Source of the DNA: Verrucomicrobiia bacterium
GTDB lineage: Bacteria; Verrucomicrobiota; Verrucomicrobiia; Limisphaerales; CAIMTB01
NCBI GenBank assembly: GCA_019634625.1
Contig: JAHCBA010000005.1
Location: 62,001 to 126,000 of the forward strand
Length of the DNA: 64,000 nt
Reading direction: 5' to 3'
Of the stretch, positions 3,603 to 45,685 are shown one piece after another; position 1 is the first letter of the stretch, and every line of letters starts with the position of its first letter. The notes beneath the pieces were generated by a model that did no database searches, was not told the origin of the DNA, and saw nothing but the letters and a program-made list of their open reading frames with translations. The translations under genes and the position numbers were made by a program.

Positions 3603-5084
<1,482 letters not shown>

Positions 5085-6693: not shown

Positions 6694-6748
6694 GGCGGTA
6701 CGGTAACGCCCGTGCCGGCCGCAGGGAACCCTGCGATGGGGCGCGTCC

Positions 6749-11100: not shown

Positions 11101-11184
11101 CAGATCCGGCTCGGCGGCGCCCACGGCGGAACAGGCGATCGCGGCGGCAAGCAAGGCGGCGAAGGGGCGGCGCGACGGAGGCAT
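8131..11184 (-). CDS. PVC-type membrane-bound dehydrogenase with HEAT repeats and C-terminal cytochrome c domain
   Basis: 1017 residues from the ATG at 11184, which precedes a signal peptide 'RPFAALLAAAIACSAVGAAE'. Residues about 40-450 form the six-bladed propeller of the PVC 'membrane-bound dehydrogenase' family ('IALAFDEHGRGLVIEMRDY', 'GLDNRIHGSSS', 'GGGQHGMSFDS', 'VIDMYREIIEHP'). Residues 450-800 look like HEAT-type helical repeats. One haem site, 'CAPCH', lies near residue 892, followed by a 'GPDLESV' haem-binding-domain motif and a 'MPEGFE' distal Met. It should be a periplasmic electron-transfer enzyme acting on sugars or alcohols, but the substrate is not known for this family. It stands alone and overlaps cdsA tail to tail by 8 bases. 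Confidence 0.9.
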   Translation of the reverse strand: MPPSRRPFAALLAAAIACSAVGAAEPDLQREEIPRYPPLNPGEALAAFVVKPGFRIELAAHEPAVVDPIALAFDEHGRGLVIEMRDYSERRPEQLGRVRRIEDRDGDGHFETGEVFLEDLPWPTAIACWDGGVFVGATPDIWYAKDTTGDGRADLREIVFTGFASQFAPYATNRLNVQAMLNSFRWGLDNRIHGSSSLSGGQVRAVDSAFTRAWRAKAGLPPLDPERSWDLRGRDFSLDPRTLEFRPETGGGQHGMSFDSTGRKFLCSNSDHLQWARYEEHHAARNTAGVLGPARVSIAADGPAAEVFRLSPEEPWRIIRTRWRVTGLVAGLIEGGGRSSGYFTSATGLTLYRGDAFGPDFADDAFVADCGSNLVHRKKIRAEGSELIGERPSDERDREFLASRDTWFRPVDFVNAPDGCLWVIDMYREIIEHPWSLPPNLKRHLDLNAGNDLGRLYRVAPAQQPIRRQVGLAGLTTPEYVALLGHPNGWHRDTAARLLLERADPEAPALLRGALRGAAFPMARLHALYVLDSLGGLQVSDLGSALGDASEPVRRHAVRLAERRLTGRGPTEIDDATWTALAGDEPFVRLELAFALGTLQVPQRTALLARLIRTADSQPREQGIVEAAILSAGDDTLALFRALLRDNDLPHRSGALAALARTLGRRNRPDERATMLDVLLARSPERSVLHLATRFVEGLRQAGAEAAVLVPGDPRWQGIHALALTLAASPEAATDLADRLDAVRWLGLMPTPSGFDRLALLATLAGSTELPRAAVEALFRTDESRAWDALLPRWSQLAAPARLDALEITLRRPAGMDRVLDALAGGTLTPRDLTATQIAGLRRHPDAARRERAMELLGAPAPSRTEALATALAALDLPADPRRGFAVHQAQCAPCHRLAGYGHVLGPDLESVRSQPREKLLVGILDPNREVASAFLATTVETTDGESLTGVIVSESADGLVLRQASGLETSLPRQRILRQTTEPRSLMPEGFETTLTPQELADLLACLTDGVPVALK

Positions 11185-11483
11185 GACCCGGGCATGCGAA
11201 ACCGCCAGGCGCAACGCGGGCGAGTCGAAAATGGAGCCCGGGTCCATTCCCGGCATTCTTGACGGGAGCGTTCGCTCATCCGGAACCGCATTCTTCGGAT
11301 GGCCGGACTGTCCATTCCACAGATGTCCGGCAGGAGCCGGCCCGCACCGGGAATCGAATCCTCGATCGGGACGACGCAGCTCGAACGAGGCCCGCCGCAA
11401 CAGACCGCCCGGGAACGGTCAGGCGCTGCCCGCGTTGCCTGTGCCCCCGGTCCACGACGCCGGATTGCGTCAGGGTCGAGCCG
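11185..11483. other. Intergenic region upstream of the dehydrogenase gene
   Basis: GC-rich spacer. Nothing convincing was seen: no conserved frame on either strand. One tRNA-like T-arm string near 11350 was examined and rejected. It presumably holds the promoter for the dehydrogenase gene. Confidence 0.4.
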
Positions 11484-20525: not shown

Positions 20526-21521
20526 TCATGGCAACACGACGACTCGATAGGACCTCTGGGGCTGGCCGAACGGCACATCGTCGGTAACACACTGAACCTC
20601 GCCGATAGCGCTTATCGCCGCTCCCAGATCCATCCATCCAGGAGGTGTCAAATCTGATCGATACTGCACCTGGTACGACGCCCCAACCGTGGCATTCCAG
20701 CAAATCTCAACCTGCGAGCAACGAATGGTGGCAATCGGGCCGCATAATGGCTTGCGGCAGTAATCGAATGTATTCAGGAACAACGCTTCATTCTGTGAGA
20801 ACGCACCCGGGACCGTCGTGTCCGCGAACGCATCGTGGTCCGAGTAGATGACCACCCGACCCGCCCCGGGACCCAACATTCCTGCCTCGATTACCGCCAG
20901 CGCAACGCCGATCTGATTTGTGGCAAGCGACACAGCGTACGGGCCTAGATCGGTCAGACCCCCGGGAAATACCTGACCAAACGCAGCGACACTGCCAAAT
21001 GGGCCACGGGTGACCGGGTGCGACGACGGCATCGTCACAGTAGCGGTGGCGAAGCCACCTACCGTGCCGTCGACTTGGACTCCAAACGGGGCGAGAACGG
21101 CCTCGTTCGCGGCAGGCGCGCTGGGATCGAATGTTGAGTTATCGGCGAAGACGACTGCCGACCCGCCGTGGCGAACGAACTCCATCACCGCCCCCTGCTC
21201 ATCCTCGGAGAGCGGCTCGATCGCACCTTGCCGGTCGGCTGCCGAACCGATGATAAGTATGTCCACAACAACGAGGCTTGAGGCATCCATCGTTGTGAAA
21301 CCTTCGAATGTGACGTTCGGAAACCGGGCCGCGACCGCGGCCCTGGCCTGGGAGTAGTAGGCTCCCTCGATAAAGGAATAGCTTCCGGCTCGCTGGCTGG
21401 TGAAGCCACCGACGACGAGGCTCGACTTCGATGTGCATGCCAGAGGTGTCTGCGCCTGTAGTGTCAGCGAGACCGCGAGGGGCAGGATTAGGCGTACTAC
21501 GTGATCCAATCCGATCTTCAT
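20526..21521 (-). CDS. Secreted protein of unknown function with C-terminal SxDLxxW-type module
   Basis: 331 residues from ATG 21521. Signal peptide 'LILPLAVSLTLQA'. Residues about 25-240 look like a Rossmann-type or DUF4350/GldG-like fold ('SSLVVVDILIIGSA', 'FVRHGGSAVVFADNSTF', 'GRVVIYSDHDAFAD'), without clear catalytic residues. The last 60 residues are a small beta module 'SYQVQYRSDLTPPGWMDLG' ending 'RSYRVVVLP'; similar endings occur on the four other secreted proteins up to 31777. Two CxxxxC-type pairs near 255-275 could form disulfides. Last gene of the minus-strand secreted cluster, 29 bases after a CsgG remnant. No function can be assigned. Confidence 0.75.
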   Translation of the reverse strand: MKIGLDHVVRLILPLAVSLTLQAQTPLACTSKSSLVVGGFTSQRAGSYSFIEGAYYSQARAAVAARFPNVTFEGFTTMDASSLVVVDILIIGSAADRQGAIEPLSEDEQGAVMEFVRHGGSAVVFADNSTFDPSAPAANEAVLAPFGVQVDGTVGGFATATVTMPSSHPVTRGPFGSVAAFGQVFPGGLTDLGPYAVSLATNQIGVALAVIEAGMLGPGAGRVVIYSDHDAFADTTVPGAFSQNEALFLNTFDYCRKPLCGPIATIRCSQVEICWNATVGASYQVQYRSDLTPPGWMDLGAAISAIGEVQCVTDDVPFGQPQRSYRVVVLP

Positions 21522-21550
21522 GGCTTTAATGGTATGGTGTCTTTGCAGTG

Positions 21551-21691
21551 TCACAGAACGTCGTCACCGAATACAACCGCGTCATGCCCTTGGCGGATGC
21601 CGTTGTTAAGCACGTTGACGGCGGTCGCTTCCAGCACGGTGATCTTCCCGATCCTGGCTGACTCGGTGAGCCACATGTTTGCCGGCCCGCT
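21551..21691 (-). pseudogene. CsgG-like gene remnant
   Basis: Reading the minus strand from 21691 to the TGA at 21551-21553 gives 'SGPANMWLTESARIGKITVL' followed by 'EATAVNVLNNGIRQGHDAVV'. This aligns without gaps with residues 'SGLADMLVTEVGRIGKFTVL' and onward in the intact CsgG-like protein at 26338-27345; by eye about 20 of 40 positions are identical. It has no start codon context and no N- or C-terminal remainder, and directly abuts the end of the propeller gene. It is best read as the leftover of a duplicated CsgG-like gene in the same operon. Confidence 0.8.
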
Positions 21692-21692
21692 C

Positions 21693-24479
21693 TCAACGGG
21701 TATGAGTTCGGAAGAACAGCCGGGTTTCAGGCGAAATCGATCTCAACAGGTCTGTCGTCGCCGCCTCGCTTACAACATTTGTCCACATCGTCCATTCGAC
21801 CAGGTCCGAGGACTCTTCAACGGTGAAGGCTCTCCCCGCCGGGCCGGAAACGCGGAGGCGGAGTTGACCGGCGTCGAGGAACTCCGCCGACAAGCTGATG
21901 ACTTCGGCAGGCGCGGCAAAGACGCGAATCACTGCTGGTCCCATCCCGAGATAAATATAGCCCCGTGGATCGTAGGCGACACAGCTGGGAATCCCAAGGT
22001 TCTGGCTGGTGTCGAATCCGGCATCGAATGTTCCATCGGGATTGATCCGCGCGTATTTGCTGACCGCATTGCCGAGCACGTTGGAAGCCGTGTCAGAGCT
22101 GTTCTCGCGCCCGAAGATCATCACGATCTTTCCGTCAGCTTGCTCGACCGCGTCGATAAACTGCGGACTCACGGTTGCATTGGCGACGTTGAAGACCGGA
22201 TCAAACGTGCCATCGGATCTCATCAAACGTAACAGATGCTCGCCTTCCACCCCCTGACACACGAGAACGCGGCCGTTCCCAAGGAGCTTCGCGGCAGCGA
22301 TCAGGTTCGAACCGGTGGTGGTATGGAAAGGGCTGAAGTTCGCAGCCTTGTTTCCGCTGGAGTCGAGTTTCATCAGTTGCGAGGCATCCAATCCATTCCA
22401 GGATTGGAAGCCGCCGAACACCCAGATCGATCCAGCCGGATCATGCCCGACACTGGCCAGGGAGTTTGTGTCAAAATTCCACCTTTTGAAGAGGTTTTCA
22501 CGGCCTGACACTGACAACAACTCTGCCAGCGCTTCCGCCCCCGGCCCATTTTGCACGTCGAAAGCCGGGATGACTCTCCCGTGATAGTCCACCAACGTCG
22601 CCTGCATCGCGGCGTTCGTGATCCCGCCGGTGACCACGTTGGTGAACCCTCCGACGAGGACGTAGCCGACACCCGGCCTTTCCGAGATCGAATTCGCCGG
22701 GCCCCCAATCAACTCGATGGGACTGAACGACGGATCATCCGGAAGGCCGGCCTGGTCGGCGAATACCCGTTGGATGATGTACTTGAAGACAGGGACTCGG
22801 CCTCCAGGACCTCGCCCGCCTTGTCCTTGTCGAACATTGCTACTGCATACAAGCCGGCCTTGGGAGTCGATGATGCCATTCTGAAAGGAGTGGCTGGTGG
22901 TTTCCTCGTCCAGGCCGAAGGCACTCCATGCGGATCTTTGGTCAACTACCCCTCCGTCGGGACCGATGCGTTGGATGACACCACTTGTACCGGTCGCCAC
23001 GACACTCCCGTCCCTTCGGACGAACAGGCGGGTGAGGGTGCCACTGCCCATGCTCGCCGGTTTCATCGTGGGATCGTGTGCTCCGTCGCGGCGCTCGACC
23101 ACCTGCACGATGCCAGCAGCCGAAGTTTGCTGCCCGAAGATTCCGCCGTCCGAGACAAGGCAACGATAGTTGCCGGAATCATTGGTTGTCGCATTGGCCA
23201 CGATGAACATTGCGGCGGTCGCATTGGGAATATTCGTGTAGCCCAACCTCCCGGCCGGCTGCTTCTGCCATTGGTAGATCGGATCTACACTCACAGCGAA
23301 GACACTGACGCTCAAAGCGAGGGTTTGGCCCGTCAGGAGTGCGGCCGATCGAGGGTGCTCCGTGACGACGATGCGCGGAGTCGGCGTGAAGTTGACATCG
23401 GCAACAGGAATGCGAAGCAGCCGGACCAAGCTGTCCGCGGCAAGCGCAAACAGGTGCGGACCGTGACGGAAGACATGCCGGGTCCAGGATTGGACAAGAC
23501 TGGCAGGCAACGAGGCGGTCGCGGTCGGAAGATTGTCCCACGTTATCCCGTCAGTGACAGAGAACTTTGGCCCTTCGATGCTGGTTCCCGCAAGGTGGCC
23601 GAGAAAAAGAGTGGATCCGTCCGAGGTGAGATTCCATTGAAAATTTGCGCCCGTCCCCAATCCGGCTCTCGCCTCTGTCCACGAGTCACCGAAGTCGTCT
23701 GTGAAGTAGATGCCCTCGGGCGACCTTGCCCTGAGCGGATCCTCATCGATCGGAATGAAAACCCGGCTGCCGTGGCGAACAAACTGACCGTGGTAAATGC
23801 CAACCGGTGCGGTTGTCTTTCTCCAACTGGCTCCATGGTCCGTCGTCTTGTATATCTCATGAGGCAGAGCATTTGGGATTCGCACACTCACGAGTGCTTG
23901 CCCTGCCCCGGCTATGACGGACTTCGGCTGAGTGCCTGCGGGCAATCCATTCGTGACTTGGTGCCAGTCCATCCCGTTTGCAGACGTGTACACGCCGTTC
24001 CATACCGAAGGGACGTAGTAACGCTCAGACGCGGCGTCATAAGCGATGTCCCGCAGAATCGGAACTGAATCGAGTGCTATACCTGATTCAACGGCCTTCT
24101 CCCATGTCGCTTCCCCGGGCCGAAGCCGATGGAGCGCTGTTGCGCCCACCGGTGTCTGCGGTTGAAGCAGATCCCCGCCGACCCAGACGAACCCGTTCTC
24201 GAATTTCACAAAGTTCAAGGAGAGGTTCGTCAAGTTGTATGAGCCGGTTCCCTGAACCGCGTTGATGGTGTCAAACGTCCGCCCATCCTCGGTCCGATAG
24301 ACGCCCGCAGCGCCCAGGAAGTAGAGGTGTGTGCCGTCACTGGCAACAGGTTGAGTGCGGCTTGATGAGGTGCTGGCTATCGTCAGCGGCCCGGGGACGT
24401 TCGTGGTTATCTCTGTCCACGTCTGAGCAGGTGCGGCAAGGGCCGGAACGATCCATGCGAGGGCAGGCAATTTCTTCAT
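21693..24479 (-). CDS. Large secreted protein: Asp-box propeller, Ig-like domain, delta-60 repeats
   Basis: 928 residues from ATG 24479 ('MKKLPALAWIVPALAAPAQT' is the leader). Residues about 30-365 form a BNR/Asp-box propeller ('KTTDHGASWRK', 'YFTDDFGDSWTEA', 'FSVTDGITWDN'). About 375-460 is an Ig-like domain ('YQWQKQPAG', 'ATTNDSGNYRCLVSDGG'). From 475 to 870 come delta-60-type repeats ('LTRLFVRRDGSVVATG', 'YARINPDGTFDAGFDTS'). The C-terminus is the shared module 'FTVEESSDLVEWTMWTNVV' ending 'TRLFFRTHTR'. Probably cell-surface or extracellular; no enzyme motif seen. Its start is 20 bases after the stop of the upstream delta-60 gene, so they are likely co-transcribed. Confidence 0.85.
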   Translation of the reverse strand: MKKLPALAWIVPALAAPAQTWTEITTNVPGPLTIASTSSSRTQPVASDGTHLYFLGAAGVYRTEDGRTFDTINAVQGTGSYNLTNLSLNFVKFENGFVWVGGDLLQPQTPVGATALHRLRPGEATWEKAVESGIALDSVPILRDIAYDAASERYYVPSVWNGVYTSANGMDWHQVTNGLPAGTQPKSVIAGAGQALVSVRIPNALPHEIYKTTDHGASWRKTTAPVGIYHGQFVRHGSRVFIPIDEDPLRARSPEGIYFTDDFGDSWTEARAGLGTGANFQWNLTSDGSTLFLGHLAGTSIEGPKFSVTDGITWDNLPTATASLPASLVQSWTRHVFRHGPHLFALAADSLVRLLRIPVADVNFTPTPRIVVTEHPRSAALLTGQTLALSVSVFAVSVDPIYQWQKQPAGRLGYTNIPNATAAMFIVANATTNDSGNYRCLVSDGGIFGQQTSAAGIVQVVERRDGAHDPTMKPASMGSGTLTRLFVRRDGSVVATGTSGVIQRIGPDGGVVDQRSAWSAFGLDEETTSHSFQNGIIDSQGRLVCSSNVRQGQGGRGPGGRVPVFKYIIQRVFADQAGLPDDPSFSPIELIGGPANSISERPGVGYVLVGGFTNVVTGGITNAAMQATLVDYHGRVIPAFDVQNGPGAEALAELLSVSGRENLFKRWNFDTNSLASVGHDPAGSIWVFGGFQSWNGLDASQLMKLDSSGNKAANFSPFHTTTGSNLIAAAKLLGNGRVLVCQGVEGEHLLRLMRSDGTFDPVFNVANATVSPQFIDAVEQADGKIVMIFGRENSSDTASNVLGNAVSKYARINPDGTFDAGFDTSQNLGIPSCVAYDPRGYIYLGMGPAVIRVFAAPAEVISLSAEFLDAGQLRLRVSGPAGRAFTVEESSDLVEWTMWTNVVSEAATTDLLRSISPETRLFFRTHTR

Positions 24480-24498
24480 GCGGCAGTTCGTTTCAGGC

Positions 24499-26277
24499 TC
24501 AGTTCCCTGTCGCGGGCTTCGCTGGAAGGTGGAGGCGGGAGGCGGGGGTTCGAAGCCGGAGTCGCGGTTCGGATCGAACCACATAGAATCGGAACGGAAG
24601 GCCTGGGGTTGCCGAACCAACGAACTCGTATTCGCCCGGGACCAATTCCCTGGCAGGACCCATCGGCATCCACTGACTCCTCGGCAAACCCAAGAGATCC
24701 GTGGCCAGGACCGTGAAGGTCTCACCCGCCGGGGCCGTGAACTCCATGCGCAACGAACCGTCGCCCGAGAGCGTCACGGCGGTGAACTCAGGTGGCGGGG
24801 ACATGAGGGCATAGTCGGCGAGGGTCTCCACGAGCCCCGAGGTGACGGCCCCATCCGTTACCCGCGCACGGGCCCTCACGGACCCGGTGACTGGAAGCGC
24901 GAGATCGGTGAGTTGCCAGCCTCCCGGAATGCGCACTCCCGCTCCCAGCGCGCTCCAGATCATGCCCCCGTCCGTCGAGAGATCGAACGCGACACCTTCC
25001 GCCTCCGGTGAGGCGCCGCCGCGCAGCCATTCGATCCTGTCGGCCGCCGTGACGGCGAGGTTTTGCGTGGCGGCATCGTTCTTGAGCAGCGCAAGATTGG
25101 CCCGCGGCTGCCCATTGACCCCGGCAAACCTGCCTCCGATCACCACGCTCCCGTCTCCCTGGATGAGGACGCCCGAGACGACAGGAGCAGCGACCTCGGC
25201 GTAGGCGCTGGCAGCGAAGGCGGCATCGATGGTCCCGTCGGGAAGAAGCCTTGCCATGGCGTTGCGAGCGATCCCCCCAACGGCTTTAAAGAATCCGCCG
25301 ATGACGAGTCTAGCATCCGTCTGCAATCCCATGGTGAACACGCCGACGGTTCCGGCGCCCGAGATCTGTGGATCGAAACCCATATCCAGCGAGCCATCAG
25401 GGTGAAGACGGGCCATGTGAGTCCGTGCGGTCCCCGCGACGGAGTGAAAAATGCCCCCGACCAGGATCATTCCATCCGGCTGCTCGCGGATGGCGTACAC
25501 GCCACCGAATTCGCCGCCGGACACGCCGGGATTGAAGTCAGGATCAAGCGACCCGTCGGGATGAAGCCGCGCGAGGTTGGTGCGCGCCACACCGTCGATC
25601 CCCGTGAAGCCGCCTCCCACCAGAATGCGGCCATCAGATTGCCGGACAAGGGCGTTCACAGAAGCGAATCCGCCATCCGCCGACACCCGCGGATCAAAGG
25701 CCGGATCGACCGAACCGTCGGACTCAATCCTCGCCAGATGAGCGCGTTCGATCCCGCCGACGGTGTCGAAGATCCCGCCCAGGATGAACCGCCCGTCCGG
25801 CAGGAGGAGCGTGGTGTACACCCCTGTGAACGAACCCTCCCCCGACACTCTCGGATCGAAGCCCGCATCGAGGGCGCCGTCCGGATGAAGTCGCGCGGCG
25901 AATACCCGCTCAACACCCCCGATCGATCTGAATGCTCCGCCGAGGACGATCCCGCCATCGCCCAGCACGATGATGCTGCTCACATCCCCGCGCACGTCCG
26001 CCTCGAAGCCGGGATCGGGATCACCGTTCGGGAGAAGGCGCACCAAATGGTTCCGTCCAGTGCCTCCTGTACGCAGGGCGACCAGTATTCCATGATCGGC
26101 CTGCACCGTCGCGGTCACGACAAACGGATCGATGACGGGGCGGAATGCCTCGTCCACGTCGCCCGGCGACGGCCTCCCCATCGACATCCCGTTCCCGGCA
26201 AGGATCGAACCCAACACCGCCAGCGCCGCCTTCCGAACGAAGGCCATCCGGTGACGCTCCCATCCAGGTGCCTTCAT
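24499..26277 (-). CDS. Secreted delta-60 repeat protein
   Basis: 592 residues. The leader 'FVRKAALAVLGSILAGNG' is followed by seven or so delta-60 repeats of about 55 residues with the consensus 'ARLHPDGSLDPDFNPGVSG...V.AI..QPDGMILVGG.F..V.G', a beta-propeller-forming motif. Then comes a beta region ('GVAFDLSTDGGMIWSALGAG') and the shared C-terminal module 'FTVLATDLLGLPRSQWMPMG' ending 'FRFYVVRSEP'. Delta-60 proteins are abundant in Verrucomicrobiota and Bacteroidota and are thought to be surface-exposed binding proteins. It sits 60 bases downstream of the CsgG-like gene and 19 bases upstream of the next propeller gene. Confidence 0.88.
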   Translation of the reverse strand: MKAPGWERHRMAFVRKAALAVLGSILAGNGMSMGRPSPGDVDEAFRPVIDPFVVTATVQADHGILVALRTGGTGRNHLVRLLPNGDPDPGFEADVRGDVSSIIVLGDGGIVLGGAFRSIGGVERVFAARLHPDGALDAGFDPRVSGEGSFTGVYTTLLLPDGRFILGGIFDTVGGIERAHLARIESDGSVDPAFDPRVSADGGFASVNALVRQSDGRILVGGGFTGIDGVARTNLARLHPDGSLDPDFNPGVSGGEFGGVYAIREQPDGMILVGGIFHSVAGTARTHMARLHPDGSLDMGFDPQISGAGTVGVFTMGLQTDARLVIGGFFKAVGGIARNAMARLLPDGTIDAAFAASAYAEVAAPVVSGVLIQGDGSVVIGGRFAGVNGQPRANLALLKNDAATQNLAVTAADRIEWLRGGASPEAEGVAFDLSTDGGMIWSALGAGVRIPGGWQLTDLALPVTGSVRARARVTDGAVTSGLVETLADYALMSPPPEFTAVTLSGDGSLRMEFTAPAGETFTVLATDLLGLPRSQWMPMGPARELVPGEYEFVGSATPGLPFRFYVVRSEPRLRLRTPASRLHLPAKPATGN

Positions 26278-26337
26278 GGTCGGACCAGGATTCAGATCGA
26301 AGGTCGTGCCGCGCGCGGCTTTCCGGCTGCGGGACGC

Positions 26338-27345
26338 CTACTTCGCCTTGACCACCCAGCCGGCCTTGACCTCGAGATCGCCCTCGTAAACCGCCCGGCT
26401 TCTCTCCTCCTGGGCCGATTGGATGGTCAATTCCCCCACCAGCTTCTCCTCCGTAAAGACAACCACGTCATGCTCATCCCGGATCTCGATGGCCTCGTAG
26501 AGATTCAGCTTCTCGCCGTCCCTGAAGCCCTGCGCCTTGCCAAGCGACACGATGATCGCCTGCCGGCTCGGTGCGGCAAGCACCTTGCCCGCCGTGGCGC
26601 GCCTGGCCTGGAACTCAGCGCTCGCCGCGGCACCCGCGGCCTGATCCCTGGCGGCGATCCGCTTCACGCGACCGGACTCCGGCAGTGTCACGGGCCGCAG
26701 TTCCTCGACAATCATCCCGAGCGCATCGACCGTGGCCTTGACCAGAGCGCTGTCCATGAACTCACGGTTGTCGTGACTGATGCCGCCCCCGCTGCCCCTG
26801 CCGAATCCGGAAACATTGAAGCTCGTGCCTCTCTTTTCCGCCGTGGCCGAACCGGTCTTGATGACCCGCCGGTGCGAGGCATCCACCAGCCGCCAGTCGA
26901 TCCGCACATCGACCGAACTCTGCCGGATGCCCACGTTGCCCAGGCCCACGCGCCGGGCGATGCCGCCGACGCCGGTATTGGATTCCTGGGCGCCGAAGCG
27001 CGTGACCTTGCCGGTCAGCATGAAGTCCGCGGCGGCAAACCCGCCCTTCTCGACCATCTCAGCCGCGTCGATCCAGCCGTCCTGGCCCTCGCGGATTTCG
27101 TCCTTGAGCACATCGAGATGGATCGTTTCGAGCACGGTGAACTTGCCGATTCTTCCGACCTCCGTGACCAGCATGTCGGCCAGCCCGCTGCCCAGCGCGG
27201 GCTGCCAGTACTGGATGTGAACCCGGTCCCCGGTGAATGGCGCCACGATCAGGGTCGGAGGTTCGCCTTTGGCAACCCTCGACGTTGTCGCCGCGCCCGA
27301 GATCACGAGAAGGGTCAGCAGGGTGGAGATGCAGTGTCGTTTCAT
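26338..27345 (-). CDS. CsgG-like secretion/assembly protein
   Basis: 335 residues with leader 'ISTLLTLLVISGAATTSRVA'; there is no lipobox Cys, so it is not a classical CsgG lipoprotein. The core matches the CsgG superfamily: 'LIVAPFTG', 'GSGLADMLVTEVGRIGKFTV', 'AAADFMLTGKVTRFG', 'VDVRIDWRLVDASHRRVIKT' and 'ALVKATVDALGMIVEEL'. Residues about 255-335 add a beta-rich C-terminal domain ('VSLGKAQGFRDGEKLNLYEA', 'VGELTIQSAQEERSRAVYEG'), a FlgT-like feature. CsgG forms the outer-membrane pore for curli; in other family members the role is assembly scaffolding. It heads the run of secreted repeat proteins, suggesting it helps to display or export them. That role is inferred. Confidence 0.85.
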   Translation of the reverse strand: MKRHCISTLLTLLVISGAATTSRVAKGEPPTLIVAPFTGDRVHIQYWQPALGSGLADMLVTEVGRIGKFTVLETIHLDVLKDEIREGQDGWIDAAEMVEKGGFAAADFMLTGKVTRFGAQESNTGVGGIARRVGLGNVGIRQSSVDVRIDWRLVDASHRRVIKTGSATAEKRGTSFNVSGFGRGSGGGISHDNREFMDSALVKATVDALGMIVEELRPVTLPESGRVKRIAARDQAAGAAASAEFQARRATAGKVLAAPSRQAIIVSLGKAQGFRDGEKLNLYEAIEIRDEHDVVVFTEEKLVGELTIQSAQEERSRAVYEGDLEVKAGWVVKAK

Positions 27346-27512
27346 ATCATGGACGGTGTTGGTGTGCTTGAGTGGTCTTGGAGGTTGTACAGGTCATCCT
27401 GGTTCGTCTTCAGCCTGCGGGATCGAACGGTCTGCCTTTCCCGCGCTGCCGAGGGAGTCGTTGGGCATCTTCATCGGGCATGGTGAAGTCCAGGTGGGTG
27501 GCAGGCATGGCT

Positions 27513-30500
27513 TCAAGGCGTCGGCGGGCGCAGCCGGAAGAACCGTTGCCCGGGTTCGACAGGGATCGTGATCCGCACGTTGAGGCCGTTGTCGTTCACC
27601 GCGCCGATGTCCTCCCAGCCATCCGGGTCATCGACGACCTCGCTCCACTGCAACACATGCCCTGTCAGCGCGGACGGCCAGTTCACGGTCACGGTCTCGT
27701 TCTGCAGCGCGTCCCGCTGCCAAGCCACGCGCAGTTGCTTGCCCTGCTCGGGCAGGCCGGTGGCGGAGATTTGATAGTTGCCGGTGCCACCCGCGGTGTT
27801 GTTGGCCACCACCACCAGGAAAATGCCGCTGTCCGGGGCGGTGAAGTTGAGCTGCGCCAGGCTGGCGTGCGTGTGGGAGCCGATGAACTGACCATCGGGA
27901 CCATAGAGCAGGAGCAACGGCGTCAGGCTCGTTGTGGTCACTTCCTGGACTTGCAGAGTGATGTTGTTCCCTTGATCCGCTTCAAACGTCCAGGGATCCA
28001 GATCGGCGAGTGTGACGGCGCCTTCATGGTTGCCGCCGTTGGTCAACGGCCCGCCCTCGTCCCCGCCGGGGATGATGAACGCGCCCGGGATCTTCAGGTA
28101 GTGGAGCCGGTAGGTGCCGATCAGGCCGGTTCCGAAACTGACCAGGGCAGTGTAGCTGCCCGCCACCCCGGTCACGAAGCTGATGCTGGCGTCATTGTGA
28201 GCCGAAGTGCTCGCGACCAACTCGCCATCGGGCCCATAGACACCCAATCGGAGCGTGGGTATGGCGGAGTTGCCCGAACCACCGGTGAGCGCGGCCAGGC
28301 GCAGGAGCACCTGCTCGCCCGCAGACACTTCAAAGGTCCAGGGATCCAGATCGGCGAGTGTGACGGCGCCTTCGTGGTTGCCGCCGTTGGCCAGCGGCCC
28401 ACCCTCGTCCCCGCCGGGGATGGTGAAGGCACTGGGAAGCTTCAAGTAGTGCAGGCGGTAGGTGCCGGTCAGGCCGGTTCCGAAACTGACCAGGGCAGTG
28501 TAACTGCCCGCCACCCCGGTCACGAAGCTGATGCTGGCGTCGTTGTGAGCCGAAGTGCTCGCGACCAACTCACCCTCGGGCCCATAGACACCCAATCGGA
28601 GCGTGGGTATGGCGGAGTTGCCCGAACCCCCGGTGAGCCCGGCCAGGCGCAGGAACACCTGCTCGCCCGCAGACACTTCAAAGGTCCAGGGATCCAGATC
28701 GGCCAGCGTAACGGCACCTTCGTGGTTGCCGCCGTTGGCCAGCGGCCCGCCCTCGTCCCCGCCGGGGATGGTGAAGGCACTGGGAAGCTTCAAGTAGTGC
28801 AGGCGATAGGTGCCGGTCAGGCCGGTTCCGAAACTGACCAGGGCAGTGTAGCTGCCCGCCACCCCGGTCACGAAGCTGATGCTGGCGTCGTTGTGAGCCG
28901 AAGTGCTCGCGACCAACTCACCCTCGGGCCCATAGACACCCAATCGGAGCGTGGGTATGGCGGAGTTGCCCGAACCGCCGGTGAGCCCGGCCAGGCGCAG
29001 GAACACCTGCTCGCCCGCAGACACTTCAAAGATCCAGGGGTCCTCCTCCCCTACCGCAATAGCCCCTTCGTGATTCCCGCCGTTTGTCAGGGTTGTTCCG
29101 TTCGCGGGCTCGGGCGAGAACGGCCCGGCTTCGAGCAGATAGTTGATCCGATAGTTGCCTGAACCTCCTATCAACAGGGAGTCCAGGACCACGTTGAACG
29201 TGCCGGTGGTCGGCAGGATGAGTTTGAGCGTGCTGGCCGAGGCACTGCCCGGGACGGTGTCCACGCTGTATCCGACCAGCGTGCCGTTGCCATCGTACAC
29301 CCTCGCGCGGGGTGCGTAGGTCGCGGCGCCCGTCAACTGAGTCAGGCCGAGCGTCACCCGGTCCCCGGCATTGGCGGTGAAGGTCCAAACGTCCAGGTCG
29401 CCGAGCGTGGTGCTGCCGTCCTGATTGCCGGTGACGAGCGGCATGCCATCGTCCAAGGGCGGGGTGATGAACGAGCCGGGCGATTTCAGATAGAACAGCC
29501 GGTAGTTGCCGGTGCCCTCGACCAGGCTGGAATCGAGCACGACCGTGAAGCTTCCTTCCTCGTCCGGCACAAAATCCAGCCGCGCTTCAGACGCATTCGA
29601 GTTGCTTGCGCCCGCCGCGTGGCCCACGAGGAGACCCCGGGCATCATAGACCTGGAGGCGTGGGGCGAAGGTGGCATCACCCGAAGTTTGCGCCGCGCGC
29701 AAAAATACGCGCTCGCCGGCCGCCGCTTCGAACGTCCACGCATCCATGTCACCGAGGCTGATCGCCCCATCGTGGTTCCCCCCGCTGGTGAGCGGGCCTC
29801 CCGTGTCGCCCGATGGCGTGGTCACGGCGCCTGGGAGTTGCAGCCGGTGAATCCGGTAATTGCCCGTGCCTTCGGCGGTGGCGGAGTCGATGGCGAGCAT
29901 GAACGTGCCCTCCGCCGTGGGTTGAAACAGCAGCCGCGCCTCGGAAGTGCTCGAGTTGGAACCACCAGCCGCCTCAGCCAGGAGTCCTCCATCAGCGCCG
30001 AACACGCGCATCCGGGGAACGAATCCCGTGCCGCCGGAGAGTTGTGCCAGCCGGAGCAGCACCGAGTTGCCCGTCGCCGCCTCGAAGCTCCAGACGTCCA
30101 GGTCGCCGATGGCGATGGCGCCTTCGGAGCGGGATTCGTTGGGCAGCGGGCCGCCGGTTTCGCCGGAGGGGACCGCGGCGTCCCCGGGTTGGCGCACGAA
30201 ATCCATGCGGTAGTTGCCGGTGCCATTGGCCAGTGCGGAATCCACGATGACCGTGAACGTCCCGGTGGAGGTGGCGACATGGTCCAGGCGGGCGGAAGAC
30301 GTCGAGGAATCACTGGCTCCGGCCGCCCGTCCGACCAGGTTTTGTCCGGCATCGAAGACGCGGAGGCGCGGGGCGAAAGTCGTGCCGCCGCTGGTCTGGC
30401 TGGCGCGCAGGTAAATGCGATCACCCTCCTGGGCGGTGAAGGTCCATGTGTCCTCGTCCCCGGCAGGAGAGATGGCGTCGCTGTGATTGCCGGCGTGGGT

Positions 30501-30758
30501 GAGGGGGCCGTCAGCCCGCACCGTGAGCAACCCGGCCATCAGCATTGACAGCGAAACAGTCAGCGCCTTGACGGCAGAAGCCCGGGCATGAAGAACGGTC
30601 GGCGTTGAGATCCGCGGCTGGAAATCAGTCAGGGAAGCGCGCAGACGCCGATTCGGCGACAGAGGCTCAAGGACGGGGCCAAGGGGAGTTCGCGCCGGGC
30701 GTAATTGCCCGTGGGAAGATTGCGCTGTCGGTGGTACTTCAGGGGTGGGCTTTATCAT
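27513..30758 (-). CDS. Secreted protein with eight pre-peptidase-C-type (PPC) repeats
   Basis: Up to 1081 residues; the start is uncertain because the hydrophobic leader 'VKALTVSLSMLMAGLLTVRA' lies 62 residues in, and no ATG directly precedes it. Eight repeats of about 115-120 residues follow, each beginning like 'GGPLANGGNHEGAVTLADLD' and 'PWTFEVSAGEQVFLRLAGL', the PPC beta-sandwich. Units five to seven are almost identical in DNA as well. The end 'LQWSEVVDDPDGWEDIG...GQRFFRLRPPTP' is the shared C-terminal module. There is no peptidase domain, so it is probably an adhesin or carbohydrate-binding surface protein. It is upstream of the CsgG-like gene with a 167-base gap. Confidence 0.85.
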   Translation of the reverse strand: MIKPTPEVPPTAQSSHGQLRPARTPLGPVLEPLSPNRRLRASLTDFQPRISTPTVLHARASAVKALTVSLSMLMAGLLTVRADGPLTHAGNHSDAISPAGDEDTWTFTAQEGDRIYLRASQTSGGTTFAPRLRVFDAGQNLVGRAAGASDSSTSSARLDHVATSTGTFTVIVDSALANGTGNYRMDFVRQPGDAAVPSGETGGPLPNESRSEGAIAIGDLDVWSFEAATGNSVLLRLAQLSGGTGFVPRMRVFGADGGLLAEAAGGSNSSTSEARLLFQPTAEGTFMLAIDSATAEGTGNYRIHRLQLPGAVTTPSGDTGGPLTSGGNHDGAISLGDMDAWTFEAAAGERVFLRAAQTSGDATFAPRLQVYDARGLLVGHAAGASNSNASEARLDFVPDEEGSFTVVLDSSLVEGTGNYRLFYLKSPGSFITPPLDDGMPLVTGNQDGSTTLGDLDVWTFTANAGDRVTLGLTQLTGAATYAPRARVYDGNGTLVGYSVDTVPGSASASTLKLILPTTGTFNVVLDSLLIGGSGNYRINYLLEAGPFSPEPANGTTLTNGGNHEGAIAVGEEDPWIFEVSAGEQVFLRLAGLTGGSGNSAIPTLRLGVYGPEGELVASTSAHNDASISFVTGVAGSYTALVSFGTGLTGTYRLHYLKLPSAFTIPGGDEGGPLANGGNHEGAVTLADLDPWTFEVSAGEQVFLRLAGLTGGSGNSAIPTLRLGVYGPEGELVASTSAHNDASISFVTGVAGSYTALVSFGTGLTGTYRLHYLKLPSAFTIPGGDEGGPLANGGNHEGAVTLADLDPWTFEVSAGEQVLLRLAALTGGSGNSAIPTLRLGVYGPDGELVASTSAHNDASISFVTGVAGSYTALVSFGTGLIGTYRLHYLKIPGAFIIPGGDEGGPLTNGGNHEGAVTLADLDPWTFEADQGNNITLQVQEVTTTSLTPLLLLYGPDGQFIGSHTHASLAQLNFTAPDSGIFLVVVANNTAGGTGNYQISATGLPEQGKQLRVAWQRDALQNETVTVNWPSALTGHVLQWSEVVDDPDGWEDIGAVNDNGLNVRITIPVEPGQRFFRLRPPTP
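28000..29040. repeat. 348-bp tandem repeats inside the PPC gene
   Basis: Three consecutive units at a constant 348-bp spacing (for example the string GTCCAGGGATCCAGATCGGC near 28337 and 28685) are nearly identical, including synonymous sites; the third repeat near 29033 diverges at its edge. Each unit codes 116 residues. The near-identity implies recent duplication or gene conversion, and the copy number may vary between strains. Confidence 0.88.
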
Positions 30759-30883
30759 GTGATCGTGGAAATGGGCGTCGTTGTCGGGTCGCAGCAGAGC
30801 GCAGCACGGCGGAAAACGTCCGCACGTTGTCAGGGCCGGTCGAAAAGGGTGCGGATTCCGGGAGGGTCCAGAGTTCCGATGAC

Positions 30884-31777
30884 CTATTCCGGAACAACCT
30901 CAGCCTTGAAGTAGCCGGGTGTCCCGAACTCCCGAGTCGAGAAGAGGTGATAGAGGGTGTCCCCGGTGCCCACGAACGGGGCCGCGACCGGGCTCCAGTT
31001 GGCCAGATCGGGGGAGCGGAGAAGCTGGTAGGTGGTTCCGGGTACGGTGGGCGTCCCGATTTCAATGGCGGTTGCGGAAGTCATCACCCATTCCGCCGGC
31101 TCGATCTGGATGGAGTGAACCAGCGTGTCGTAGAAGATGTCCCCGGCGGCATCCACTGCGAAATCGACCCTGTCGCCCTCCTTCAGTCCAACACCAAAGC
31201 TGTAGCCGGAACCCGCCGTGTCGCCCCCGCTCACCAGGCGTTCGAACACCTTCCGTCCGTTGATGTACACGGTGAACCGGACGCCATTGCCGCCGGCGGA
31301 ATGTTTGGCGAGGTGACCAGAGATGCGCACCAGGCCCGTCGTCCCGCTGATCCACCGCCGGATCGCCCAATGTTCCTGAGCGTCCCCGGCATGGGGATGC
31401 GCGCTGGTGGCGGTGACTTCGGTCCAGAACGAGCCGATCCTCCAGGCAGGGCTCCCGAGGTTGCCCGGTTCGAAGACAGGGAATGGAGTGAAGTCGTGTT
31501 CGGGATCATAACCGGGTGTCGTGTCGGCGGTGACATTGTAGTAGCCGTAATGCCAGTTGTTGGCGCCCTGGACGTTCGAGAATCCGGACACGGAATCCGC
31601 AATGGGCTGGGCGGAGGCCGAAGCGCAAAAAAATGCCAGGATCAGTCCGGCAGGGAGGCGTTTCACGGACGCGAGGACGGCAGATCGAGCCTGGGACTCC
31701 ACGCGGGACAATCGCCAGTCCATGGAGGCGGAAGAGGGTCGGCGACTTCGGACTGGGTGGCTTTCTGGCGAGGTCAT
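30884..31777 (-). CDS. Secreted beta-sandwich protein with C-terminal SxDLxxW module
   Basis: 297 residues from ATG 31777, or 279 from ATG 31723; the leader is 'LPAGLILAFFCASASAQ'. The body ('NNWHYGYYNVTADTTPGYDP', 'TGLVRISGHLAKHSAGGNGV', 'VDFAVDAAGDIFYDTLVHSI') resembles lectin-like or carbohydrate-binding sandwiches that Verrucomicrobiota and Planctomycetota attach to secreted proteins. The C-terminus 'TYQLLRSPDLANWSPVAAP' ending 'GYFKAEVV' is the shared module. It lies just downstream of the kinase-regulator pair at 31933-35855 on the same strand, with an 18-bp palindrome in the gap, so it may be a direct target of that system. Confidence 0.78.
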   Translation of the reverse strand: MTSPESHPVRSRRPSSASMDWRLSRVESQARSAVLASVKRLPAGLILAFFCASASAQPIADSVSGFSNVQGANNWHYGYYNVTADTTPGYDPEHDFTPFPVFEPGNLGSPAWRIGSFWTEVTATSAHPHAGDAQEHWAIRRWISGTTGLVRISGHLAKHSAGGNGVRFTVYINGRKVFERLVSGGDTAGSGYSFGVGLKEGDRVDFAVDAAGDIFYDTLVHSIQIEPAEWVMTSATAIEIGTPTVPGTTYQLLRSPDLANWSPVAAPFVGTGDTLYHLFSTREFGTPGYFKAEVVPE

Positions 31778-31888
31778 TCTTGAAGTGGCGGTGTGTTGGG
31801 CCTTCAGGGGCTTGAGAAGCATGCCAGCGGGCCGGGTCGTCCGGGAATACTCCTTGCGGGTGATGCCGGGTGGCCGGCACGACCTCCC

Positions 31889-31906
31889 GACCCCTCGCGA
31901 GGGGTC
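31889..31906. promoter_or_regulatory. 18-bp perfect palindrome, possible operator
   Basis: GACCCCTCGCGAGGGGTC is a perfect inverted repeat located 26 bases after the regulator gene's end and about 110 bases before the start of the secreted-protein gene (minus strand). It could be a binding site for the LuxR-type regulator encoded next door, or a weak hairpin; no T-run follows on the minus strand, which argues against a simple terminator. Confidence 0.45.
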
Positions 31907-31932
31907 ACGCGGGAAGGTGAGGGCGGATCCGG

Positions 31933-32589
31933 CTATTCGTCGGGGAGGGGTGGAAGACCCTGAACCTTGAGCACCGCCTCGCGCATCGAGTTCACACCCA
32001 GTTTCCGGTAGATGTGGCTGCAGTGCTTCTTGACGGTGTTGATCTCGATGCCGAGTTCCAGGGCGATCTCGCCCTGTTGTTTGCCTCGGGAACCGTGACG
32101 GAGCACGTCCCATTCACGGGGAGTGAGGCCGTGATCGCCGGGGGGAACCGCCAGGAGGTACCGCTGCGCCAGGTTCCAGAGCCGGCAGGCGACGGAAGGG
32201 CTCATGGCCGGTGCACGGTCCGCGAGGACATCCTCCAACCCGGCGATCAGATGAGCCTTTTCGCGCTTCACGATGTATCCGCAGGCTCCGGCATGGATGG
32301 CGCGCGAGATGGCGGTGTCGTTTTCAACGACCGTGAGCATGACCACCCGGGCTCCGGGCAACGCCCGTTTGAGCGGCGCAATGAGTTTGATGCCGTCATC
32401 GTCGGCGCCGAGGACGATGTCCAACAGGATGATGTCCGGTTTCGCATCGGGGATGCGTTCGAGGGCGTCCTCGGCGCTGCCGCAGTCGGCGACGACCGAC
32501 CATCCGTCCCGGGCATCGAGGGTGGACCGCAGCAGGCTCCGCAACGGGTCGGAGTCTTCGACCAGGGCGATTCGAACCTGGCGACTCAT
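31933..32589 (-). CDS. NarL/LuxR-type response regulator
   Basis: 218 residues from ATG 32589. Receiver domain with 'LVEDSD' acidic pocket, phospho-acceptor Asp in 'IILLDIVLG' (about residue 57), switch Thr in 'VMLTVVE' and Lys in 'GYIVKRE'. The C-terminal LuxR helix-turn-helix is 'LTPREWDVLRHGSRGKQQGE' then 'IALELGIEINTVKKHCSHIY'. The ATG overlaps the stop of the sensor kinase gene (ATGA), which makes the two a cognate pair. Likely targets are the secreted-protein genes immediately downstream. Confidence 0.93.
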   Translation of the reverse strand: MSRQVRIALVEDSDPLRSLLRSTLDARDGWSVVADCGSAEDALERIPDAKPDIILLDIVLGADDDGIKLIAPLKRALPGARVVMLTVVENDTAISRAIHAGACGYIVKREKAHLIAGLEDVLADRAPAMSPSVACRLWNLAQRYLLAVPPGDHGLTPREWDVLRHGSRGKQQGEIALELGIEINTVKKHCSHIYRKLGVNSMREAVLKVQGLPPLPDE

Positions 32590-35500
32590 CGGGATCCGAA
32601 CGCCTTCGGATTGGGGAGGCTCATGGGCACGACAAGCCGGACCTCGACGCCGCAACCCGGCCGGGAGCGGATTTCGCAGTGACCGCCGAGTTCGGCACAA
32701 CGGGTTCGGAGGTTCCGAAGGCCGCGTCCCCGGACGAACGACTGCCCGGAGGAGGGAACGCCGGGCTCGCCATCGAACCCGCATCCGTTGTCTTCGATGG
32801 ACAGTTCGAGCAAACCTTCCCGGACTCGCAACCGGATGGAGACATGGGTGGCGTGGGCGTGCTGGACGACATTGCGAAGGGCTTCCTTGAACATGCCGGC
32901 GACATCCCGACGCAGATGGACGGCCACCGGGACATCGGGCAGATCGGGCGGGATGTCCGCCTTCAGGGTCAGTCCGGCGGCGCCGAGGAACCGGCTGGCA
33001 TGGTCGATGATGAATCCGGCCAGGCTGGGGAGGGTATCGTGTTCCGGATGGACGGCCCAGATCAGGTCACCGAGTTCGCCCAGGGACTCGCGAACGTGAT
33101 GCTCAACGCCGGTCCCGCCGGTAAAGGCCGCCGCCGTCAGTCGTGAACCGAGATGATCGTGCAAATCGCGGGCGATCCGCGCGCGCTCGGTTTCCAGGGC
33201 ATGCCGGCGCTCGGCATCGAGGCGGCGGCGCTGGCGGCGCAACCGCCAGATCACCGCAGCCGCGGTGCCTCCGAACAGGCCCAACCCACAAGTGAGGTAA
33301 AAGGGCCGGCTCTCCCATAAGAAGGGAGTCAGGCGGAACGCCACCACGGCGTCGTCCTCGCTCCAGCGGCCCTCGTGATTCCGCGCCTGAACCCGGAAGC
33401 GGTACCGGCCCGGTCGGAGGTTCGCATAGCTCGCACGGCGGACGGAGCCGGCCTCGATCCAATCGGGATCGTGGCCATCCAGCCGGTAGCGGAGGAGCAC
33501 GCGCTCGGGCGAATGCAGACTGGTGGCGGTAAAGCGAAACTCGAGGTGGCGTCCCTGCCCGGAACGAAGATCGATCGCCGCTTCGGCCCCACGCGCGGCC
33601 TCCGGGCGGGGTAACCGGTCCGCGACGGAGTGGAACGGAGCAAGGTTCAGGATCTCCCCATCCGCGATCGCACTTTCGATATGGACCTGGGGCGGTGGGG
33701 CGGTGGGGCATTCGGAAGGATCCACCACCACCAGGGACCCATCCTTCGAGAACCACAGGCGACCGTCGCTGCCTTTGATACACGTTTGAGCGCCGACCCG
33801 GCCCCGGAGGGTCGCGACGCCATCCGCGGTTCCGAAGATGGCGACGGCAGGCTGACGCGCGGGTTCCCGCAACCAAAGCCTCAGTTCGTCCAGCGCAACC
33901 CGGACCACGCCCGCATCGCAACTCATCCACAGGCGTCCGGAATCGTCTTCGAGGATGCCGTGAATGGCCAGTTGAGGAAGGCCGGACTCCGGACCGAACC
34001 GTGCGAACTCGCCCATCGCGAACCGTTGCAGACCCTGCCGCGTCCCCAGCCAGAGTTCTCCTTCTTCCGTGGCATGCAGGGCGATCACGGCGGTGTCGCC
34101 CCGGTCGAACGGTTCCGTCAGGCCCTCGATGCGGCCGGTGGGGTCGAGCCGGTACAGTCCGCCCTGGGTTCCGATCCAGAGGTTGGTCCGGCGGTCCTCG
34201 ATGAACGCATGGATCCCCGGGAACTCGAAATCACCCATCGGCACGGCCCGGGTCGCGTCGGCGGCAAGAAAAAGACGATTCGAAGTGCCAAGCCAGAGCC
34301 CGCCCGAACGGCTGGCGTGCAGCGCCCGCAACTCGCCCAGTTCCTGAAAGCGGCGCGGAAACGGGTCCCCGGGTTCCGATTCAGGGGATTGCAGCGGCAA
34401 CCGAAAGAGCCCGCCAGAACTGTGACTCGCCCAAGTGCCATCGGACGAACCGGCCAACACGAGCGGGTACTGGAGCAGCCGGGTGCGCACGTTGAAGAGG
34501 CGTTGCGTGTCGAGGATGGCTAACTCCTGGCCCGACCAGCGTCCGAAGAAGTAAAGACCCCCGAGCCAGAGGGCTCCTGCCGGATCCTCCGCCAAGGAAA
34601 AATGGCCCCGGGTTGACGGTCCATCGAACGACAGGACCGCAAAAGGCAGGGCACGCACCCGGGCGAGACCGTCCCAGCCACCCGCCCAGACCGCACCGTC
34701 GCGATCCACCCAGATGCACAGTTTGATTCCCATCATCGGGCCGACGGGGACGGGGAGAATCCTCCCTTGTTCCTCCACCAGTCGAAACAAGCTGCCAAGA
34801 TGATCGACATAGTCGGACCCGTTGGTGGCCCAGATGTTGCCCTGACCATCCTCCGCGAGGCCAATGCTGGTACGTACCTCCCGGATATCGAGGCGAACGG
34901 GCGATGCATCCGGTGAGTTCAGCAGCGCGATGCCATGAGTGGAGGCAATCCACAGGCGCTGCCGGCGGTCGAGGAGCAACCCGAGAACGTCGATGGGCGC
35001 CGCTCTCGTTCTCAAGTCGGAATGGGTCCAGGCCCGAAGAACCTGGCGCGACGCCGTGTCGTAATAGGTCACCGAACCGGGCGTGCCGAGCCACACTCTG
35101 CCGTCGGCCGCTTCGGCGAGCGACAGGACCCGGCTGACCCCGGGGATCTCCATCCATTGAACGCCGTCGCCCTCCCAAAGACCCAGGCCGCGATCCGCGC
35201 CGATCCAGAATCCGCCCGCAGCGCGCCCGGCAATGGCGTTGATCGCTTCGCCCTGCAATTCCATGTCTCCGGGAAACCGGACGAACTGACCTCCTGCGCG
35301 GCAGAGGACCCCGTTTCCCGTGCCAATCCACAGCCGGCCCTCCGGGTCCTCGTACAGGCAGCGTCCGATGGATCGATGGTCCCGCAGCTCGGGAGTGTTC
35401 CCCGCGTCGAACGTGGTGAAGCGGACGCCGTCGAAGCGCACCAGGGCGCGGACTTTGCCCATCCAGAGGAAACCATCGCGGGTCTGAAGAAGGGAAAGGA

Positions 35501-35855
35501 TCCTGTGAGCGGGCAGTCCGCCTTCCACGTTCCAACGATCGATGACGTATCTGGGCTGCGGCCGCGCCGGCGGGCTGCCTGCCCGTGGATCCCCCCAGAA
35601 CGCGACTCCGATCCCAGCCGCGGTGCCTTCCTGGACCGGAGATTCATTATCGAACACGACATTGGTGACTCGATTCCCATAGACGACGGAAGTGATGCGG
35701 TGTGGCGTCAAGGTCACCATGGGCGCACCGCTGAGTTCGACCGCCATCTGACTGACTCGAAACGGAGGGGATTCCATGAGTCCGACCGATTCGGTCGAGG
35801 CAAGCGTCCCGCCCGATGTCAGCAGCATCCCGACACCCAGCCGAAGTCGCATCAT
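32586..35855 (-). CDS. Propeller-sensor histidine kinase (two-component propeller, Y_Y_Y, HisKA_3)
   Basis: 1089 residues from the ATG pair at 35855/35852, chosen for the leader 'RLRLGVGMLLTSGGTLAS'. A large periplasmic region holds two-component regulator propeller repeats from about 100 to 730 ('ILSLLQTRDGFLWMGKVRAL', 'DPEGRLWIGTGNGV', 'EDRRTNLWIGTQGGLYRLD'), then a Y_Y_Y domain ('YRLDGHDPDWIEAGSVRRAS'), and one membrane helix near 850-870. The cytosolic part has the HisKA_3 His in 'ARIARDLHDHLGSRLTA' and HATPase motifs 'EALRNVVQHAHAT' and 'EDNGCGFDG'. This architecture commonly senses polysaccharide fragments in Bacteroidota; the ligand here is unknown. ATGA-coupled to its regulator. Confidence 0.93.
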   Translation of the reverse strand: MMRLRLGVGMLLTSGGTLASTESVGLMESPPFRVSQMAVELSGAPMVTLTPHRITSVVYGNRVTNVVFDNESPVQEGTAAGIGVAFWGDPRAGSPPARPQPRYVIDRWNVEGGLPAHRILSLLQTRDGFLWMGKVRALVRFDGVRFTTFDAGNTPELRDHRSIGRCLYEDPEGRLWIGTGNGVLCRAGGQFVRFPGDMELQGEAINAIAGRAAGGFWIGADRGLGLWEGDGVQWMEIPGVSRVLSLAEAADGRVWLGTPGSVTYYDTASRQVLRAWTHSDLRTRAAPIDVLGLLLDRRQRLWIASTHGIALLNSPDASPVRLDIREVRTSIGLAEDGQGNIWATNGSDYVDHLGSLFRLVEEQGRILPVPVGPMMGIKLCIWVDRDGAVWAGGWDGLARVRALPFAVLSFDGPSTRGHFSLAEDPAGALWLGGLYFFGRWSGQELAILDTQRLFNVRTRLLQYPLVLAGSSDGTWASHSSGGLFRLPLQSPESEPGDPFPRRFQELGELRALHASRSGGLWLGTSNRLFLAADATRAVPMGDFEFPGIHAFIEDRRTNLWIGTQGGLYRLDPTGRIEGLTEPFDRGDTAVIALHATEEGELWLGTRQGLQRFAMGEFARFGPESGLPQLAIHGILEDDSGRLWMSCDAGVVRVALDELRLWLREPARQPAVAIFGTADGVATLRGRVGAQTCIKGSDGRLWFSKDGSLVVVDPSECPTAPPPQVHIESAIADGEILNLAPFHSVADRLPRPEAARGAEAAIDLRSGQGRHLEFRFTATSLHSPERVLLRYRLDGHDPDWIEAGSVRRASYANLRPGRYRFRVQARNHEGRWSEDDAVVAFRLTPFLWESRPFYLTCGLGLFGGTAAAVIWRLRRQRRRLDAERRHALETERARIARDLHDHLGSRLTAAAFTGGTGVEHHVRESLGELGDLIWAVHPEHDTLPSLAGFIIDHASRFLGAAGLTLKADIPPDLPDVPVAVHLRRDVAGMFKEALRNVVQHAHATHVSIRLRVREGLLELSIEDNGCGFDGEPGVPSSGQSFVRGRGLRNLRTRCAELGGHCEIRSRPGCGVEVRLVVPMSLPNPKAFGSR

Positions 35856-36218
35856 CAGACCCGACCTCGTACATGGTGCCGGCATCGGGAACCCTCCCCA
35901 ACCCTCTCGATGTTCGCGGTCATCCCGGACGCCACCGCAGGACAACCGGCGACCTGACCGGCCGTGAAATGACCCGGGCTCATGGACCTGGATCTCGCGG
36001 AATCCATGCCCACGGCTCTACACCGTCCGATTCCTTCAAGCCAAGCCTCTTCAGGCCCCGTGGCAACGGCTCCGATCGCCGGAGGAGAAGTCCCCGACCG
36101 CGCCCCATGGAATGCTGCGATCGTTCGCGCTCTCCACAGGCGCATCCGCCGAGGGACCCCCGGGCAATAAGTCGGAGGACTTGTGCGATGCGGGAATCCT
36201 CCCCGAACCGTCCACCGG
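35856..36218. other. Intergenic region
   Basis: Spacer between the sensor kinase start and the DUF1428 stop. It should contain the kinase promoter. I see no conserved frame, no palindromic element of the families described here, and no RNA gene. Confidence 0.4.
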
Positions 36219-43099: not shown

Positions 43100-43243
43100 G
43101 CCCCGGACCGGCGGCGATGAAGGCGGCATGGCGGACCGGTGGGGGCCGGGCGCCGGCAGGGCAAGTTCTGGTGGGGAAATGGCACGGTAGGGCTGGTCAG
43201 GGGGGGGCGGCCCTTGAAGGATGAACGGCAAGGCGATGCATCC

Positions 43244-44551: not shown

Positions 44552-44659
44552 CTGTGCCGTGAGGGGTTGTGGGAGAGGCGGCACGAAGGGCGCAAGCGGA
44601 AGACAATTTGGGACAAGCGACAGCAAGCGGCGCGGGCGGGGACGGGTTAGAGAGACGGG

Positions 44660-45631: not shown

Positions 45632-45685
45632 GGGGCGGCGGAACGGCATCGTGTCAGCCGTCCGAAAGGCGCGCCCTACCGGGCC

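Follow-up and report, generated by a model that had tools for sequence, protein, structure and literature searches.

A predicted FnIII-like, mostly C-terminal module on exported proteins of Verrucomicrobiota and its tentative reading as a T2SS recruitment domain

Introduction

T9SS CTDs are C-terminal beta-sandwiches of ~80 aa found on many unrelated secreted proteins. PEP-CTERM/exosortase is a many-substrate C-terminal signal in Gram-negatives, including the Verrucomicrobiota. The signals of the T2SS are, to our knowledge, without sequence conservation, and we know of no common signal for this system so far.

In PelI and Pel3, loop 3 of the Fn3 domain, between strands C and C', serves as a signal for recruitment to the T2SS, and GspC and GspD are interaction partners of PelI; how the T2SS selects its substrates was termed elusive in the same work (PMC7949064). 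Within the Verrucomicrobiota, a 2026 study of an isolate proposed the T2SS as a possible exporter of alginate lyase and reported 67 PulG-like pseudopilins (PMC13274419).

Herein, a module is described that was found in a window of 64,000 nucleotides, i.e. the whole stretch of DNA analysed, and then elsewhere in the same genome and in half of the sampled Verrucomicrobiota genomes. Like the Fn3 domains of PelI (Dickeya) and Pel3 (Pectobacterium), the module is predicted to be FnIII-like and sits at an end of exported proteins, and its conserved S.DL..W segment lies where these two have their secretion loop, between C and C'. The PelI Fn3 differs in being N-terminal, seven-stranded and present on a few lyases, whereas the module is mostly C-terminal and present on >100 hosts. 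Like the T9SS CTDs (TIGR04183 and relatives), the module is a beta-sandwich, as predicted, at the C-terminus of many unrelated exported proteins; it differs in that it has no NCBIfam match, occurs in genomes without SprA, and has tandem and N-terminal copies. In contrast to PEP-CTERM, it is a soluble beta-domain ending with RFYR and a few residues.

Results

The ORF tables confirm five genes at 20526, 21693, 24499, 27513 and 30884, the positions given in a sequence-only reading of the window, and all five are on the minus strand (Table 1). The same reading called the genes consecutive, which applies only when the CsgG-family gene between the third and the fourth is skipped. The open frame of the 30884 gene extends past 31777 to 32113, and its likely start is near 31723. 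The short spacers indicate that the array is likely a regulated operon. The sensor kinase and the LuxR-type regulator (31933-35945, minus strand) may control the array. Elsewhere in the window (42407-48846, minus strand), two long ORFs of 1503 and 629 aa are R/H/P/Q-rich and have no Pfam match; both have the look of frames antisense to genes on the plus strand rather than of proteins.

Table 1 Positions of the module-gene array, the five terminal modules and the neighbouring genes in the window.
Feature	Position	Strand	Basis	Gene
Module-gene array (five module genes, one CsgG-family gene)	20526..31723	(-)	ORF tables, starts; short spacers	
Terminal module	20532..20729	(-)	Profile matches; AF2 model	20526-21554, likely start 21521
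Terminal module	21699..21908	(-)	Profile matches	21693-24725, likely start 24479, MKKLPALAWIVPALAAPAQ
Terminal module	24574..24798	(-)	Profile matches; Pfam on gene body	24499-26277
CsgG-family protein without module	26338..27345	(-)	PF03783 E=1.7e-19	
Terminal module	27522..27707	(-)	Profile matches; AF2 model	27513-30758
Terminal module	30908..31081	(-)	Profile matches	30884-32113, likely start near 31723
LuxR-type response regulator, just upstream of array	31933..32784	(-)	PF00072, PF00196	
Reg_prop/Y_Y_Y sensor histidine kinase, just upstream of array	32586..35945	(-)	Pfam	

The claim that the five bodies are unrelated was upheld by Pfam. The body of the 24499 protein is a DUF5122/delta-60 propeller, and that of the 27513 protein consists of PPC repeats. 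The 21693 protein has Ig and Sortilin-like repeats below the Pfam cut-offs, the 20526 protein is weakly ABC_transp_aux-like, and the Pfam search with the body of the 30884 protein gave no family. Judged by eye, a signal-peptide-like sequence follows the likely start in all five proteins.

The five tails were verified with two independent profiles run against the 570 window ORFs with a length of at least 60 aa. An HMM built from 23 tails of the same genome, with the window left out, matched the same five only (i-E 7e-12, 2e-11, 3e-10, 3e-7 and 1e-4), with no other match below E=1 among the 570 ORFs. An HMM of 19 tails from other organisms ranked the same five first (1e-14, 4e-8, 2e-5, 1e-4 and 0.036), and the next-best window ORF reached only E 0.89. 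The shared C-terminal module is therefore real, since independent profiles single out exactly these five proteins. Its length, earlier given as 50-60 residues, is corrected to ~60-80 aa from strand A to strand F. The module of the 27513 gene is the most divergent among the five window copies, and the 24499 protein has ~20 aa extra C-terminal to its module.

The consensus comprises strand A, then ..L.L.W.a.pG..Y.vE.S.DL...W..lg.........f.Dp......RFYRl and a few residues. The Trp is kept in 107 of the 111 copies of the genome. The terminal F-F/Y-R/K pattern that had been proposed holds as well: Arg follows FY or FF in 99/99 aligned copies of the genome, and within the window, the 24499 protein has V and the 30884 protein K at this position. 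Module proteins end in Pro in 47% of cases, vs 13% of control ORFs. Where it is not Pro, the C-terminal residue is often acidic or basic (L032-L091, L093-L121).

Modelled with AF2, the tails at 20526 and 27513 share one strand order, A-B-C-C'-E-F, with a core pLDDT of mostly 93-97 in the former and about 75-91 in the latter. In both models, the predicted chain stops at or just after strand F, and strand G is absent. The models were aligned to solved FnIII domains with Z of 6-7.8 and rmsd mostly 2-4 over 65-80 residues; a Z below 8 may reflect a common arrangement only, and fold class alone is read from these scores. The Fn3 of PelI/Pel3 was among the top rows for both models (Z 6.5-7.7), level with many FnIII domains, and the modelled resemblance to PelI/Pel3 goes no further than FnIII-likeness. 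The two modelled tails are predicted to be six-strand FnIII-like sandwiches without strand G. One fold had been expected from structure prediction, and the two modelled tails agree with this.

Like fn3 (PF00041), the module is predicted as a beta-sandwich with strands A-B-C-C'-E-F in order. It differs in ending at strand F (the alignments stop at residues 76-77 of Tencon chains of 93-96 residues), in being terminal while fn3 is internal, and in its near-invariant FYR. The eight fn3 matches in the same genome are all separated from the stop by 274 aa or more, and none is terminal. An ordinary fn3 domain was rejected because the fn3 model gives no match to the module and the fn3 sites are internal. 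For two sets of module sequences (23 and 24), Pfam gave no fn3-family match and no model for the module, and NCBIfam gave no model and no T9SS sorting-domain match. A literature search, largely outside subscription journals, found no description of the module. By these sequence scans, neither Pfam nor NCBIfam has a model for the module, which represents a so far unnamed domain family of the Verrucomicrobiota.

Outside the window, a profile built on the five tails gave 67 further matches in the genome, with E up to 1.3. The 23-tail profile, built on a subset of these matches, puts the number of copies in this genome at 129 or more (E<1e-3), among 150 scored of 463 candidates. About 1 in 40 genes of this genome carries the module, assuming about 5,500 genes. 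Module genes are adjacent in 21 pairs genome-wide, vs 12.9 expected and a maximum of 24 in 2000 simulations; the pairing is only mildly above random.

The position of the module within proteins was surveyed in 60 stretches (1.13 Mb) and the window, a non-random sample picked around module matches. Among 100 complete ORFs, the last module copy lies at most 34 residues from the stop in 93 and at most 16 residues in 88. In five of the seven exceptions, the module is close behind the signal peptide; of the remaining two, one has a LamG-like region after the module and the other ~220 residues. The module had been expected always to be C-terminal on exported proteins. This applies to ~93%; strict C-terminality, a requirement for a cleaved sorting tail, breaks down in ~7%, where the module follows the signal peptide or has an internal place. 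Three proteins carry three or five modules in tandem, with a period near 80 aa, and these arrays always end C-terminally. At 29 loci from other Verrucomicrobiota genomes, the module ends 1-5 residues before the stop in 28, and at L095, from another genome, it precedes a different body.

On contig C60 (L032, 1225-9420, plus strand), a frame of 2731 aa carries the module five times in tandem. A GspE-type ATPase and a secretin are encoded ~7 kb away on this contig, and a tricorn-type protease gene separates them from the frame (L032/L177). On C26 (L175), an ORF at 4939-7899 (plus strand), whose C-terminal region gives a partial module-like match, is tail to tail with a GspD gene at 7980-11327 (minus strand) that encodes N0 and repeated secretin_N domains. 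The proximity on C60 and C26 was discounted as evidence for a link of module and T2SS, given the intervening genes and a spacing that is unremarkable at the expected density.

The hosts were characterized by picking 20 at random. The families found were Big_9/cadherin-like, LamG, matrixin, multicopper oxidase, MauG, Beta-lactamase (PF00144), RCC1, delta-60, HpiC1-like and others typical of exported proteins, and none of the 20 belongs to an obviously cytosolic family. A crude signal-peptide scan was positive in 70/99 module ORFs vs 108/262 other ORFs; the scan overlooks several visible signal peptides, including those of two of the five window proteins, and probably over-calls membrane helices among the control ORFs. 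Judged by the crude scan and by eye, module proteins appear to carry the Sec signal peptide of T2SS substrates.

The distribution of the module was surveyed in 288 sampled Verrucomicrobiota genomes, and 144 of them contain it by profile search. Copies per genome in this survey are at-least values among the matches listed, which number 19 for many genomes. Some other Verrucomicrobiota genomes carry at least 60-81 copies. A wider scan of 84,980 genomes used the consensus letter string as query; the named matches were almost all from Verrucomicrobiota, with one from Lentisphaerae, and those from Prevotella and Bacteroidia were partial. In a Bacteroidota sample, 18/99 genomes had one or two weak matches, with a best E of 8e-8. 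The module is enriched in Verrucomicrobiota compared with this sample, and a module common to all bacteria was rejected on the same weak matches. A locus labelled Omnitrophota (L140) is no sign of spread, as it groups with Verrucomicrobiota on a search of its phylum.

GspD was the one T2SS component profiled, and a best E<=1e-70 was taken as a strong GspD. It was found in 48/48 genomes with at least 15 module copies among the matches listed, in 54/56 with 3-14 copies, in 6/16 with one copy and in 6/20 with none. Overall, 102/104 genomes with at least three copies have a strong GspD vs 12/36 with 0-1 copies. The contrast persists among genomes matched for size (2.0-3.6 Mb), with 34/35 vs 7/27 by hand tally. 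Within family f3, four genera with a strong GspD are module-rich, and genus g3, with a weak secretin match only, has 0-1 copies. The correlation is phylogenetically confounded, as most GspD-weak genomes belong to this one genus. Six genomes with a strong GspD carry no module, and one small genome (G108) has four modules and only a weak GspD (E=1.7e-31). At most, GspD goes with the module, and sufficiency is not implied.

Other machinery was also searched. SprA was found in 0/60 Verrucomicrobiota genomes, with a positive control that worked in two Bacteroidota genomes, and T9SS was rejected on this result. When the module tails were read directly, none had a PEP motif followed by a transmembrane helix and a basic tail. 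The CsgG family occurs more often where the module is abundant (23/40 vs 1/20 genomes).

Discussion

The module may be a terminal recruitment domain for the T2SS, by analogy with the Fn3 of PelI/Pel3. This reading is tentative, with a probability of about 0.37. It is ranked first because of the FnIII-like fold, the S.DL..W at the loop position of PelI/Pel3 and the co-occurrence with GspD; a post-export binding domain is ranked second and a sorting translocon third. A host protein would be exported via Sec and would fold in the periplasm. The T2SS would then recognise the module as a structural address for outer-membrane passage, perhaps via the conserved C-to-C' segment (Y.vE.S.DL..W) beside the exposed strand F (RFYR). 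We infer both the role of the module as an element read by a secretion system and the residues that may be involved. The N-terminal and tandem copies fit a position-tolerant structural signal better than a cleaved tail. The sequence conservation of the module, a difference from known T2SS signals, counts against T2SS recruitment. The wider form, a phylum-specific, sequence-recognisable T2SS address domain on >100 substrates of one genome, is unlikely. If T2SS recruitment is true, the module offers a testable handle on substrate choice by the T2SS; as an address, it would make substrates readable from sequence and the T2SS receptor mappable. A model for the module would annotate large parts of Verrucomicrobiota secretomes.

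The second reading, only a little less likely, is an accessory FnIII-like domain that is mobile and, once its host has been exported, binds glycans, matrix or neighbouring surface proteins; it would have no export role. The C-terminal placement would then result from the mode of spread and from tolerance at protein ends. The predicted fold, the tandem and mature N-terminal copies, weak profile resemblance to glucanase discoidin-like domains and the Fn3-like protein 3mpc, and the existence of other adhesive domains on many hosts are consistent with it. However, in roughly 90% of cases only a few residues separate the module from the stop, whether the host is an enzyme, a propeller or an adhesin, whereas the true fn3 of the same genome is terminal in 0/8 and never closer than 274 aa to the stop. 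The near-invariant Trp and Arg across unrelated hosts also argue against an accessory domain. An adhesive role would still make it a major surface module without a previous description.

T2SS recruitment was further weighed against a C-terminal sorting tail, possibly cleaved, for an outer-membrane translocon other than T9SS and analogous to the T9SS CTDs. The extreme C-terminal position, the >100 substrates in one genome, the size of 60-80 aa with a beta-sandwich fold and the frequent C-terminal Pro (47% vs 13%) resemble such a tail. It is quite unlikely, as SprA was found in 0/60 Verrucomicrobiota genomes with a working positive control, and a candidate translocon was not found. Tandem copies and the five copies directly behind the signal peptide are ill-suited to cleavage, and a cleaved T9SS-type tail is unlikely for the same reason.

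A folding or protection cap, in which the small, often Pro-ended sandwich shields the C-termini of long exported proteins from proteases, would match the terminal position, the Pro enrichment and the great host variety; it is improbable, leaving unexplained the conserved Trp and Arg, the mature N-terminal copies and the co-occurrence with GspD.

The proposal of a sorting or secretion module in the sequence-only reading was a reasonable one, given a shared, terminal module with one predicted fold on exported hosts, but its suggestion that the CsgG-like protein is the dedicated system did not survive. An exporter of this kind would agree with the CsgG-family gene inside the array and with the frequency of the family in module-rich genomes; it is very improbable, because PF03783 finds nothing at E<=1e-3 in 17/40 module-rich genomes, complete ones included, and matches only once in this genome, against >100 module hosts.

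The GspD of this genome carries N0 and repeated secretin_N domains. About eight secretin ORFs of the same genome (G000) match the GspD model, which is beyond the needs of one T2SS and one pilus.
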